A stretch of 64,000 nt of DNA from Bathymodiolus brooksi (Eukaryota > Mollusca > Bivalvia > Mytilida > Modiolidae). Position 1 is the first letter of the stretch; each line of letters starts with the position of its first letter. The stretch lies in assembly GCA_963680875.1 (NCBI GenBank), contig OY804576.1:77939668-78003667 (forward strand), read 5' to 3'. The notes beneath the pieces are model-generated. The model did no database searches. It was given only the letters and a program-made list of their open reading frames with translations, and was not told the origin of the DNA. The position numbers were made by a program, and so were the translations under genes. This document shows, piece after piece, positions 16,401 through 22,400 of this stretch.

Positions 16401-19400
16401 TGCTCACCTGGTGTTAAGCGAACAATGACTCACTCACATGTCTCACCATATCAACTGAAATACACAATTAACTTATTTGTTTGTTACTTCACTCTTGTTT
16501 ACGTACATTGCTCAAACCAGTTGCCATGGTATTTCTCAAATACTTTGGTAGTTACCATTTCTAAAGAATCGATATCTATGTACTTAGAATTGAAATGTGC
16601 TGATATTTCTTGTAGGTAATGTTTTTAAATGAATTAGAAGAAATTTTAGATGTGATAGAGCCTGCTGAGTTCACCAAAGTAATGACGCCACTGTTCAAAC
16701 AACTTGCCAAATGTGTCTCTAGTCCACACTTTCAGGTAAAGTTTTGTGCATTAACTGCAATTCAAACATGTTTTAAGTACCAAGGGCGGGAACAGGACAA
16801 AAGCCCCCGTTCCCGCCCTCTGACCAAAAAAAACCCAATAATGAGTTAATCATACTTTTTGTCAGGAGGCTTTTGTCCTAGACCCACCAAGAGCATTGTC
16901 TAATTCTTTGCTGCATAGAACAATTCTGATATTCTTTTAGTTATAATTTTGATAGATTATTTGTTTTAAAAAAACAACTACTATGTTGGTAGATTTAAGA
17001 AGGTTAAATTATAGAGGTGTGGGCTAAGCAATACTTTCATACTGCAGTAACATTTGTTTAGAAACAACCTTATGAAATGTATTAATAGCTCACAGTTGAC
17101 AGTGGATTGTTTGAATCTGTATTTTTGATGGAATAGCGTCTGTTTCATTTGCAATTTTAAATATCATCTTCAAGACTGGGCCACTTGGTGCATTTTCAAT
17201 AATTCTGTCCATTGCTACAGAATGAATTATTAAAATGATAAAGATAGCTTTGTTTACAGGTTGCCGAAAGAGCACTTTATTATTGGAATAATGAATACAT
17301 CCTTAGTCTGATAGCAGATAATATAAACATCATTCTTCCCATGATGTTCACTTCCTTATATAGTACTAAACAACACTGGAACAAGTAAGATCCAGAATGC
17401 ATCAGTAGCTTCCTGCCATGAATGTCGGATTGATATTTTTTATTATTTTCAGTTACCTTTGAATTCATACATGGATATTAATATGTTTTGTAATTTGTAA
17501 AAAAAGAGACCCAAATTCATAAATTTTGTTTTTGCTGATGCATTTTCTCATGTGTGAATTCAAAGATTTTCTGTATGCAGACATGAAGAATCGTATATAT
17601 ATATATATCTTTTTACATGGCTTGAATTTTTTTTTTTTTTTTTTTTAGAATTGATTTGTGTATTGCAATTAACTTTTACACAGGAAAAGAACTCTTCAAA
17701 TATTTGGTAGGATGATTGGTCATGATGTGTAGATGATCATATTATCCTGCCATTTTGATTTTTGTAGGAGAGTCAATATTTGATCAAGTCAAGTGCCAAT
17801 TTTGGTACCTAGAAGCAAAATGTAATAGAAAATTAATATTAGTAATTTTTTTTACCAGGATTTTAATTAAATGTCAAAAGTATACTGTTGTTAGATAGAA
17901 TAAACATTTCTGACTAAAAATTTGACCAGGGTCACATTTAGAATATGCCTTTTCATTCCTAAAATTATCTGGATTTGCCTCCATTTAGTTACATGGTTCT
18001 AGCAGGAGAATTGTCTGGAGTGTGAGAGTCTCATAAGGAATTCACTTGGATCAAATTTGAATATAATTGAGAGATGATATTCAAGTTTTTATATTGAAGG
18101 ATAAATGATTTGATTCCAGTAAGAATTTAATGCTTAAATTATAAATTAAAAGTTGGGGTGTCGGACGTAACTATATCTGTCCAACAAGAGAGGTTGACTA
18201 AATTGGAATTCGTTAAACTACAAGTGATGGTACAAAAACAGGCATGATCGTATCTGGGAAAAAAAGATAACTGTACGTTTAAATTATTGCAATAATCTGT
18301 ACATAACATACATAGTATTAAAACTCGGCGAAAGCACGGTAATGTTAATTTCTGTCCGCATGTTACGAGCGACAATTGCGTCATATTATTTGCCCTTCTG
18401 AAGTTTGTATACCGTTTACGACATCAAGCTTTTACTACATCATGGTTTTGCGGTAATCCGGGCACTTGACTGCTGAAAATCTGACTTAAATCTGTCATGG
18501 CATCTGAAGGAACGGTATGTCTGCCGTCTGTCTCAGTAAGTTCTAAATGTCTGTGGCGAACTCAAGTTACGAGCATACTGCATGAAATGCGAAATCATTC
18601 AAACTATTTCAAGTTGTATTGTTTGTGTGACACTCCTTGACTGTTGAACAGAAGGCTATATTCATAGGTTTTTCAAACGTCACGAAATAACAACAAATTT
18701 GCGTACATTTACATCGTGGTCTGACAAATTTGAACAGAAACATTCAGTTCAGACGCACTAAAGGACAGTAAATTACAAAATTGGCAGAGGTTTATTGCTT
18801 ATAACTTAAAGAAAGGTTAAATGAAATGGAATGTAAGTTCATCATTTGTCAGATAACATATAATTCTGTCTGCACAGGAGGTGTCTGTCTTTTGTTTGTC
18901 CCAACAAAGTTAATGTCTGTCTTTTGTTTGTCCCAACACAGACATGTCTGTCTACTGTTCGCCTAACACCAAAACCTGAAATTTATTTTCTTTTTTGCAA
19001 CTTGTAAGCTTGTTCCTATCATTTAGCAAATTGAAATTTCATTTCCAATATTTGAAATCTACCAATTGATCTATCCAGGAATATGAAACAAAATCTGGTT
19101 TTGTCGCCTTGCCATAAAAAGTATGTCCTTGTTCGTCCAACCATTTACTGTTTTTCCTTATTATAAAAAATCTGTCCTATTGTTTTGACTTTAAGATATG
19201 GATAGAATTTTAGATGCTGAAACTCCACTTTACACCACAATTCTAACAAACATAAATCTTTGTCTTGCTTATTATTCATAAAATAGTCTGTCCCTGTTCG
19301 TCCCAAACCTAATGCTACCACAATCAAGATTAGAGGAAAATTTTTATTTTGGTGTCTTTTATTTATATTTTCTTGGTTAAAAAACGAAAAGATGAAGGTC

Positions 19401-22400
19401 TTAAGACTTAACTTGTCAGAAATCATGTTTTAAACACAAATGGATGATATATAAAAATTGACGGGCATGTAACACATCCATGGGCACCATATCAAATAAG
19501 GACTCAGGAGTTATTGCCATTAAAAATGTAAATTAATGTTATTATTCCACCTTATAAGTCTGTGTCTTGATGCTGATTTTGTTTATAAGCTATATTCATT
19601 ATTAATTAAAACTAATATTCACCTCCCTCTGGTAAAGGTGACCTTAACTGATTTTAATTATCTTGTTGAAGCCCTTTGATTATTTTGCTCCCAAAGACTT
19701 TGATTTGTCAATATTTTGACTGGGCATACCTTATAAAAGTTTTTTCCAGAAACTTGTAGTGCCGTTTAAATAGGATATCTACGTTTATATTTCAGTATTA
19801 TTTATGCTCTTCATGCAAAGTTTTCAATCTTGATTCACTGAAAACACATACAGTCAAGCCTGTATTAAGAGATTACCTTCAGGACAAAGAAACAGTGGTC
19901 TTCTAAGACAGGTGACCTCTTAAAGGAGGGTTAGTTCACATGAAATTTTATATGACAGGACAAGGAAAAGGTGATCTTTTAATACAGGTGACTGCTCAAT
20001 AGAGATAACTGCATGGGCAGGTTTGACAGTATTCTTTTTTTTTTTAAGAGATATTTATTGAGGTATGGCTTGGGTCACTGATGGGTTAATGAAATAAGGT
20101 GATTGGCAATAGCACCAGTTAATAATAAGAGTGATGGCTTGTATGCGACCAACAACAAAATACACAAAAACAATCAAAATATTTTTCTCAACTTTATTAA
20201 CACATGTTTACAACATGAAAAGGTTATCAAAGCAATCATTAATTAACCTCTCTTTTACGGATCATGTGTACTTTAGTCAAAACATGACGTTATACAAATG
20301 TACATAAATTATATGAGAGCATTTATATATACAATCATAGGGAGATTTTTCAACGACTAGTGCGATATTGGTCCTGCCACAATTACCTTAATTTTTGAAT
20401 TTACAGTATTTCATACGACATTCTCAAATTTTCATGGTTGACAGGCATTGTAATTATTACCTGTGAATTGAATATTGATTTTTTGTGATTAGATCATTTT
20501 CTTACCTTCTACTTATAGTAGATTAACCATATTTAATGGTTGCCATGGTGACTTGTTACTGAAACTCCATATTACTCTTCAATATATGTGTCCTATGACA
20601 GTCCCACTGTTCACCAACTCACCAAATGCAAGTGTAAAATGATTTGGGATTCTGGCGAGTTGGCATGTCTGGGCGAAATGCGATATTTTACTGCTCGCCA
20701 GTTGATGAAACAAAATAAATATGCCGAAATTGATTGAGCGTGATTCACTTACGTGTTCCGATAAAATAGTACCGAAACATAAGTTTTTATTCAAATTGTC
20801 ACTCGTTTTTTGTTGCGGTCACCATCACTGTTTTTATGGAAACACTTAAAAACTTGTCCCAATCTTGGTTGTTATTTTCTTATTGTTTCTGATTAGAAAT
20901 CATGAATGAGATACCTATGAAATACCATTAAAAACAGCTGCTTTGTTATTTTAAACATGTTACCATGTCGTAGTCAAAATTTAGCTGAAGTTGGTAATTA
21001 TTTACTGAAATAATCGTGCATCTTTGATCGGAAATGGTATGCTTATTTTGTATTTTTGTATCCTAATAGTTCTAAATGTTGACCTTGGCGGAAAATTTGA
21101 ATTGGGAATGAAACTAAATCCAACATGAATTTTTTTTAAAGTAATTTTAAGCCAAACCTTCACCTGAAAAAGATGTTAACCCAAAGACAATGAGAAAATT
21201 TATCTCTAAATGGAAAATACGAGAAAGTAGTTGATGCATGATGAGAACAAGGGAATGTGGTGTTCCCTTGTGCTGAACATATGAGGAAAATTGGACACTT
21301 AGTGTCATGGAAAATATGACGTGTTCAAATGAGGGATCTCTCCGCATAGTTGGCTAGTGAAATTTAATTTTGGCGAGTAGATTTCAATAGTTACTAGCCA
21401 GATTGGCGAGTAACTTTAAAAAATGGTTTCCCACACTGCTATGACTGTTACCAATTCTTTACAGTCCACTGACTGCTGATATTACCAATGCTAAATGTTA
21501 GATTTGTGTGATAATGTTAGTTGCTCAAAATTATAATATTCTACAGTCATCCATAATATATGATTGTCATTTCCAAAACCGATATATAAATATATCAGTT
21601 TCATCATGCATGCATAGATAGGGGAGACAACTTCATATACGACCACTCCTGTTGAAAATAAAAGATGTGAAAAATTATATTTTATTTAGCTATATATATA
21701 GTACAGTCTTATTATTAGAAGTACAGTCAAACCTGTCTTATGCGACTATCCAAGGGAACATTGAAATAAATAAAAGAATATAAGACTAGTTTTCCTTAAA
21801 TACAAGTTAACTTAATGAATAAGAAATTCACTACAAAAAGAAATGAAAATTAAGGTCACACAATTGAAAAGTGTTGGTGGACGCTGAGGCAGGTTTGACT
21901 GTATTTATGCTTAACACAAAAAAGAACTTATTTTCAGTGCAGCATTTTATTCTTAGAGAAGTTTTGTATTATCAATGTAGTTCATTGACTGTGTTGGCTG
22001 TGACTTTTTTAAGCTTAATGTTTTAATAATTTTGCTGGTAGGTGGCAGAAAGAGCATTATACTTTTGGAATAACGAGTACATCTTGAGTTTGATCAGTGA
22101 CAATGCATCAACAATACTACCCATTGTGTTCCCAGCTTTATATAAGAGCAAGGAACACTGGAACAAGTAAGATATCTATAGATCAACTCAATAATTAAGA
22201 AAAAAAGAAGGACCAAAATAAAAACATGTGTCACCTCTTTTGCTTCTTTAAATGCATGGAATGCATGTATGTTGTAAAGCTACAGTACTGCATATTAAAA
22301 AAAAACATATTGATATGCAAGTTTATATGTAGAGCATCCTTTTTTATTCATTTAATTTATTTTAATGTGTGCAAATAGTTTGATAGTTCAGAAAATAAAT

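Follow-up and report, generated by a model that had tools for sequence, protein, structure and literature searches.

Can the choice of a single internal exon give one phosphatase gene two forms? The question is raised by a locus of the bivalve Bathymodiolus brooksi, in which a gene for a B56 (B') regulatory subunit of PP2A carries two neighbouring exons, termed A and B here, of exactly equal length. The locus lies in a 64,000-nucleotide stretch of contig OY804576.1 (assembly GCA_963680875.1, positions 77,939,668 to 78,003,667 of the forward strand); this whole stretch is referred to as the window, and all positions below are those of the window. A and B are, with high probability, two diverged copies of one 125-nt B56 exon that are used in a mutually exclusive manner, and proteins of ark clam, oyster and snail show corresponding types. 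Much of what PP2A targets is determined by its B56 subunits, and if the choice between A and B is as proposed, one gene would give two phosphatase forms.

Two copies of one exon in a B56 gene

The coding exons were placed with a human B56gamma query, followed by inspection of splice sites (Table 1). The resulting model is in frame from position 1379 to a stop codon at 48098, and has 397 amino acids with either A or B. Its product matches the Pfam profile PF01603 (B56) over profile positions 112-413 of 413, with E values of 3.5e-145 when A is included and 4.2e-147 when B is included, and on the basis of this profile the gene is assigned to the B56 (PP2A B') regulatory subunits. Structures of human B56 delta, gamma, alpha and epsilon match the exon region.

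Exons A and B are each 125 nt long, are entered in phase 0 and left in phase 2, and share the donor AACAA/GTAAGA, with intact AG acceptors and GT-AG sites in both. The encoded peptides are identical at 30 of 42 residues, the differences falling at exon positions 8, 19, 22-24, 28-29, 31-32, 35-36 and 38; at the codon level 17 are identical, 13 differ synonymously and 12 are replaced. The two exons share 88 of 125 nucleotides and were paired by blastn of the surrounding regions with an E value of 5.6e-18. No third copy was found in the window when each exon was compared with its whole length by tblastn, the next match having an E value of 0.093. The pair has the marks of tandem exons, namely homology between neighbours that are similar in length and equal in phase. 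An earlier note, made from the sequence alone, had described the same coordinates, lengths, phases, donor, acceptors, residue identity and split of 13 synonymous and 12 replaced codons, and the observation of a duplicated exon is confirmed.

Inclusion of A alone or of B alone keeps the frame to the stop codon, whereas inclusion of both or neither shifts it. The earlier note had argued this from 125 not being a multiple of three, and early stops bear it out: with A and B together, translation ends at 22085, which leaves 383 nt to the last junction of the modelled exons, and with neither exon it ends at 24401, 238 nt before that junction. A transcript whose early stop lies far ahead of its last junction is usually a target of nonsense-mediated decay. 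Transcripts with both exons or neither would be removed by this route, the frame adding a filter to whatever regulation governs the choice between A and B. Since the A-B intron is 4657 nt long, a too-short intron does not explain the exclusion; nor do incompatible splice sites, given the GT-AG sites of both exons.

Matching forms in other molluscs

Three protein searches aimed at the exon gave 146, 938 and 1537 matches, and the best 120 of each were retained, amounting to 231 different proteins. These were classed by residue 38 (E denoting B), and any contrast at that residue is therefore circular, so that other columns are quoted below. The resulting tallies, 34 A-type and 97 B-type proteins, derive from the best-120 lists and are no measure of how common each type is.

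Four A-type proteins in three sets (P0004, P0015, P0016 and P0018) have a B-type partner that is identical at 266 of 266 flanking residues. In oyster, P0004 and P0153 show no differences outside the exon and seven inside it, and P0153 is found also on contigs from a transcript-like source. P0015 and P0192, whose nearest named kin is Mactra (260/266), likewise show none outside and ten inside. The third set, from a Biomphalaria-like snail, comprises P0016 and P0018 with P0162 and P0163; here only short indels lie outside the exon (two residues in the case of P0018/P0163), there are nine differences inside it, and the flanks are those of P0161, which bears a name beginning 'Bio...'. The genus abbreviations 'Mag' (P0004) and 'Bio' (P0161) are read as Magallana and Biomphalaria. 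For P0015/P0192 and P0018/P0163, both members are on a contig of one size (1064772 and 56616397, respectively), as expected of one locus. Pairs of proteins with identical flanks are what one gene with alternative exons would produce, although they are partly gene models and not direct RNA proof.

In the ark clam Tegillarca granosa a single gene model (P0003) has an A-like copy followed by a B-like copy, in the same order as in the window. The model joins both copies with 13 odd residues between them, and the join is read as a prediction fault. A second double match, nematode protein P0123 of Cooperia oncophora, repeats a long B56 stretch and has an exon peptide of at least 43 residues; it was rejected as an assembly or gene-model fault. 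Both P0003 and P0123 were left out of the A/B pair counts.

The earlier note had named a second copy absent or broken in close relatives as evidence that would tell against it. At the protein level, A and B forms are instead found in the three sets and in the Tegillarca model. Its reading of mutually exclusive splicing gains support from these forms with identical flanks, together with the frame argument.

Exon use in Bathymodiolus brooksi

One protein among the matches, P0124 (601 amino acids, from a 2,780-nt contig, sources 'lgn' and 'ena'), is identical to the window model at 206/206 residues upstream of the exon, 42/42 residues of exon B and 149/149 residues downstream, with B included and A skipped. 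The contig must derive from spliced RNA, since the same coding region occupies approximately 46.7 kb in the window; the 'lgn' source is presumably one of assemblies of public read sets. Use of A in this species is inferred, the sole transcript-like contig found being one that uses B. Accordingly, products that carry either exon and are otherwise identical were found in the three sets of relatives, and in the species itself only the B product was found.

P0124 also has 12 residues more than the window model. Ten of these are encoded by a 30-nt exon at 32875-32904, and ATTACG at 39129-39134 is the sole AG-IT-GT[AG] site between that exon and the last one, where it would form a 6-nt microexon encoding IT.

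Conservation and age of the exon pair

The earlier note held that both copies have been kept by selection, and this is upheld by the state of exon A, which has no stop codon and no broken splice site and retains every one of the 16 columns (16/16) in which 73 other peptides do not vary. Comparison of A with B by the NG86 method gave a proportion of synonymous differences (pS) of 0.78, which is saturated, and of nonsynonymous differences (pN) of 0.18, so that the ratio is uninformative. Mean pairwise differences, out of 42 residues, are 7.4 among A peptides and 4.8 among B peptides; on these figures B is the better conserved copy, and A changes faster. Outside the class-defining column, T stands at residue 36 in 26/28 A peptides and S in 28/32 B peptides, and residue 8 is F in 31/32 B and 8/28 A peptides.

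The pair is old. A B-type form is present in the annelid Ridgeia, and A-type forms occur in the annelid Paralvinella, the bryozoan Watersipora and tapeworms; no annelid with both forms was seen among the matches listed. Peptides of both types have 42 residues, compared with 43 in most others, among them those of arthropods, vertebrates and nematodes, and the length common to A and B is as expected of a duplication that followed the loss of one codon. In a tree of the 42 columns, 26 of the 28 A rows were grouped (94/88), with the B rows lying without resolution around them. Trees in which the 32 B rows, or all 60 A and B rows, were held together were slightly likelier than the free tree (approximately unbiased test, p-AU 0.629 and 0.789, respectively). 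A single origin of A and B is allowed, and not demonstrated, by these trees.

Alternative explanations

Several observations weigh against mutually exclusive use of an old exon pair. The relatives were compared at the protein level, and many members of the A/B pairs are automatic gene models; just 4 of the 34 A-type proteins can be paired, among the matches listed, with a B form at 266/266 flanks. The matches listed include no transcript that carries exon A of the window, the best listed match to its peptide being 36/42 (oysters), and the 18 listed Mytilus-like proteins (P0125-P0142, with P0126 and P0130 named Mytilus edulis) are all B-type. When competing pairing between introns was looked for in a rough way, no convincing signal of base pairing that would enforce exclusion emerged: duplex energies of three of the four intron pairs were no better than those of 12 shuffles, and the remaining pair was slightly better (-90.5, against a shuffle minimum of -87.2). 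In the free 42-column tree, window A and oyster A fall among the outgroup rows (97/88, starred), and holding the 28 A rows together raised the likelihood by 1.87 over the free tree (p-AU 0.545), which is no proof of a clade.

Part of this would fit exon A being a relic in this species, with B alone used and A heading for loss. The sole matching transcript-like contig and the B-type Mytilus-like proteins both point that way, as does the divergence of window A from oyster A at 6/42 residues, compared with 1/42 for window B, and window A has T where 23/28 A and 32/32 B peptides have P. However, this position (residue 31) departs from P in annelid A-type forms too, so its T does not point to decay, and an exon that has kept its splice sites, its frame and every invariant column, with no stop and with synonymous sites saturated relative to B, makes a relic improbable. 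To much the same degree it is doubtful that transcripts with both exons or neither are made on purpose, lowering B56 through decay, with the A and B proteins being equivalent; the early stops are indeed positioned for decay, but under equivalence one would not expect distant molluscs to preserve the A/B contrast at residues 36 and 38 and, in part, at 8 and 22 (residue 38 being class-defining). It is scarcely credible that, in other animals, two separate B56 genes encode the A-type and the B-type proteins, rather than a single gene with two exons. In Nucella lapillus the A and B proteins lie on contigs that differ in size and show 75 differences outside the exon, and may be a true paralogue pair, but identity at 266/266 flanking residues in three sets is unlike two diverged genes, and two genes are largely excluded for the window, which, like the Tegillarca model, holds both copies in one gene.

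A stronger rival to a single ancient event, though still an unlikely one, is repeated, independent duplication of the exon within molluscs and annelids, in place of one duplication in their common ancestor. It draws on the fact that 42 columns cannot resolve the question, A and B clades being allowed and nothing further, and on the independent origins cited for mrp-1 in the available portion of PMC7434440. Against it, the annelid Ridgeia B form has F at position 8, A-S at 22-23 and KSKE at 35-38, like mollusc B, and the annelid Paralvinella A form has V at 22 and TKQ at 36-38, like mollusc A. Mutually exclusive use of A and B is retained as the best account of the pair. A further, tentative proposal is rated at somewhat less than an even chance: a splice-switchable core module of PP2A-B56 may have arisen once before the split of molluscs and annelids and been kept since, a single gene making two holoenzymes whose difference lies next to the catalytic subunit. 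If this is true, some of the B56 diversity for which vertebrates have five genes is supplied in molluscs and annelids by splicing.

Position of the exon within PP2A

In an alignment to PDB chain 8u1x_B, the exon corresponds to B56delta from residue 418 onwards. Three contacts described in vertebrate work, cited here from extracts of the papers, lie in or near it. H415 of B56delta contacts the C subunit (PMC4687035), and its equivalent in the alignment lies three residues before the exon. PME-1 contacts E353 of B56gamma1 (PMC9398451), the equivalent of which is exon position 12, where A and B are the same. For shugoshin, which contacts the C subunit and the last HEAT repeat, the five residues mutated include Y365 (PMC8256288); this residue may correspond to exon position 34, again the same in A and B, if its numbering starts ten residues later than in the gamma sequence used. 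The A/B differences would thus adjoin the contact points of the C subunit, PME-1 and shugoshin, away from the LxxIxE groove.

Each choice would yield a full B56 solenoid; the two would differ at 12 of 42 residues, in two paired helices and the loop after them, close to the C-terminal end, and the swap may retune contacts next to the catalytic subunit and not the LxxIxE groove. AlphaFold models, built with 35 sequences each, had a mean predicted local distance difference test score (pLDDT) of 66.2 for P0124 and 71.3 for oyster P0004; confidence in the exon region was middling in P0004 and low in P0124, and the models were used for the rough layout of helix, helix and loop only.

Gene model and other features of the window

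Three arrays of short repeats accompany the gene. A 70-bp tandem array (23 copies, 99% match, 8815-10423) runs right up to the acceptor of the coding exon that starts at 10428; a 46-bp minisatellite of approximately 92 copies (25476-29688) occupies the intron preceding the exon at 30027, and the long minus-strand reading frames there are its by-product; and a 43-bp repeat of approximately 65 copies (56770-59551) lies downstream of the stop codon. The last B56 intron contains a DDE_3 transposase-like reading frame on the minus strand (37147-37941, E 2.8e-11), and a neighbouring frame at 37904-38254 had a match below the cut-off only. Rfam gave no matches within the window.

Table 1. Coding exons of the B56 gene and the intron between exons A and B, in positions of the window.
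Feature	Position	Strand	Remarks
B56 coding exon, first within window	1379..1471	+	N-terminal exons outside window
B56 coding exon	3703..3833	+	
B56 coding exon	10428..10487	+	directly after 70-bp x 23 tandem array
B56 coding exon	11917..12079	+	
B56 coding exon	13235..13285	+	
Constitutive coding exon upstream of A/B pair	16616..16735	+	ends in phase 0
Exon A	17260..17384	+	125 nt; 41 codons + 2 nt, last residue (K)
A-B intron	17385..22041	+	4657 nt
Exon B	22042..22166	+	125 nt; phases as in A, last residue (K); in spliced contig P0124
Constitutive coding exon downstream of A/B pair	24338..24439	+	entered in phase 2
B56 coding exon	30027..30099	+	
B56 coding exon	31197..31325	+	
Last B56 coding exon as modelled	47954..48101	+	stop codon 48098-48100

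Comparison with known systems

No description of mutually exclusive tandem exons in B56 was found among the papers listed by searches of open-licence literature. Public protein records contain both forms, as isoforms without a name, so that the raw fact is on record and, as far as seen, apparently not described. A core switch kept across molluscs would be a natural experiment on the question of which B56 solenoid surface tunes the enzyme, in animals from which RNA, proteins and structures are obtainable.

Muscle myosin heavy chain reportedly has clusters of mutually exclusive exons, and resembles the B56 pair in that versions of a structural segment are chosen by splicing, albeit in a different gene. 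Closer in kind are exons 6a and 6e of coq-2 in helminths, annelids and molluscs, which, in the available text of PMC7434440, are tandem internal exons used one per transcript in an otherwise constant protein; the gene is another one, and the coq-2 switch has a measured outcome, rhodoquinone or ubiquinone. Exon 10 of the Crassostrea virginica alternative oxidase (PMC5589949, in extract) is a tandem duplication in a bivalve, the second copy being more conserved and the first novel, as are B and A; it differs in being a last exon and a single-species case, whereas the B56 pair is internal and found in several mollusc groups. Within the B56 family, the splice variants described in the portions available of PMC2257934 and PMC4687035 alter the ends of the protein, those of vertebrate B56gamma having alternative N- and C-termini (PMC2257934); known splice variation falls in the variable ends, whereas here the switch would lie in the conserved core solenoid. 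As a kind of arrangement, mutually exclusive tandem exons are familiar and have mollusc precedents; for the B56 family they are, as far as seen, new.

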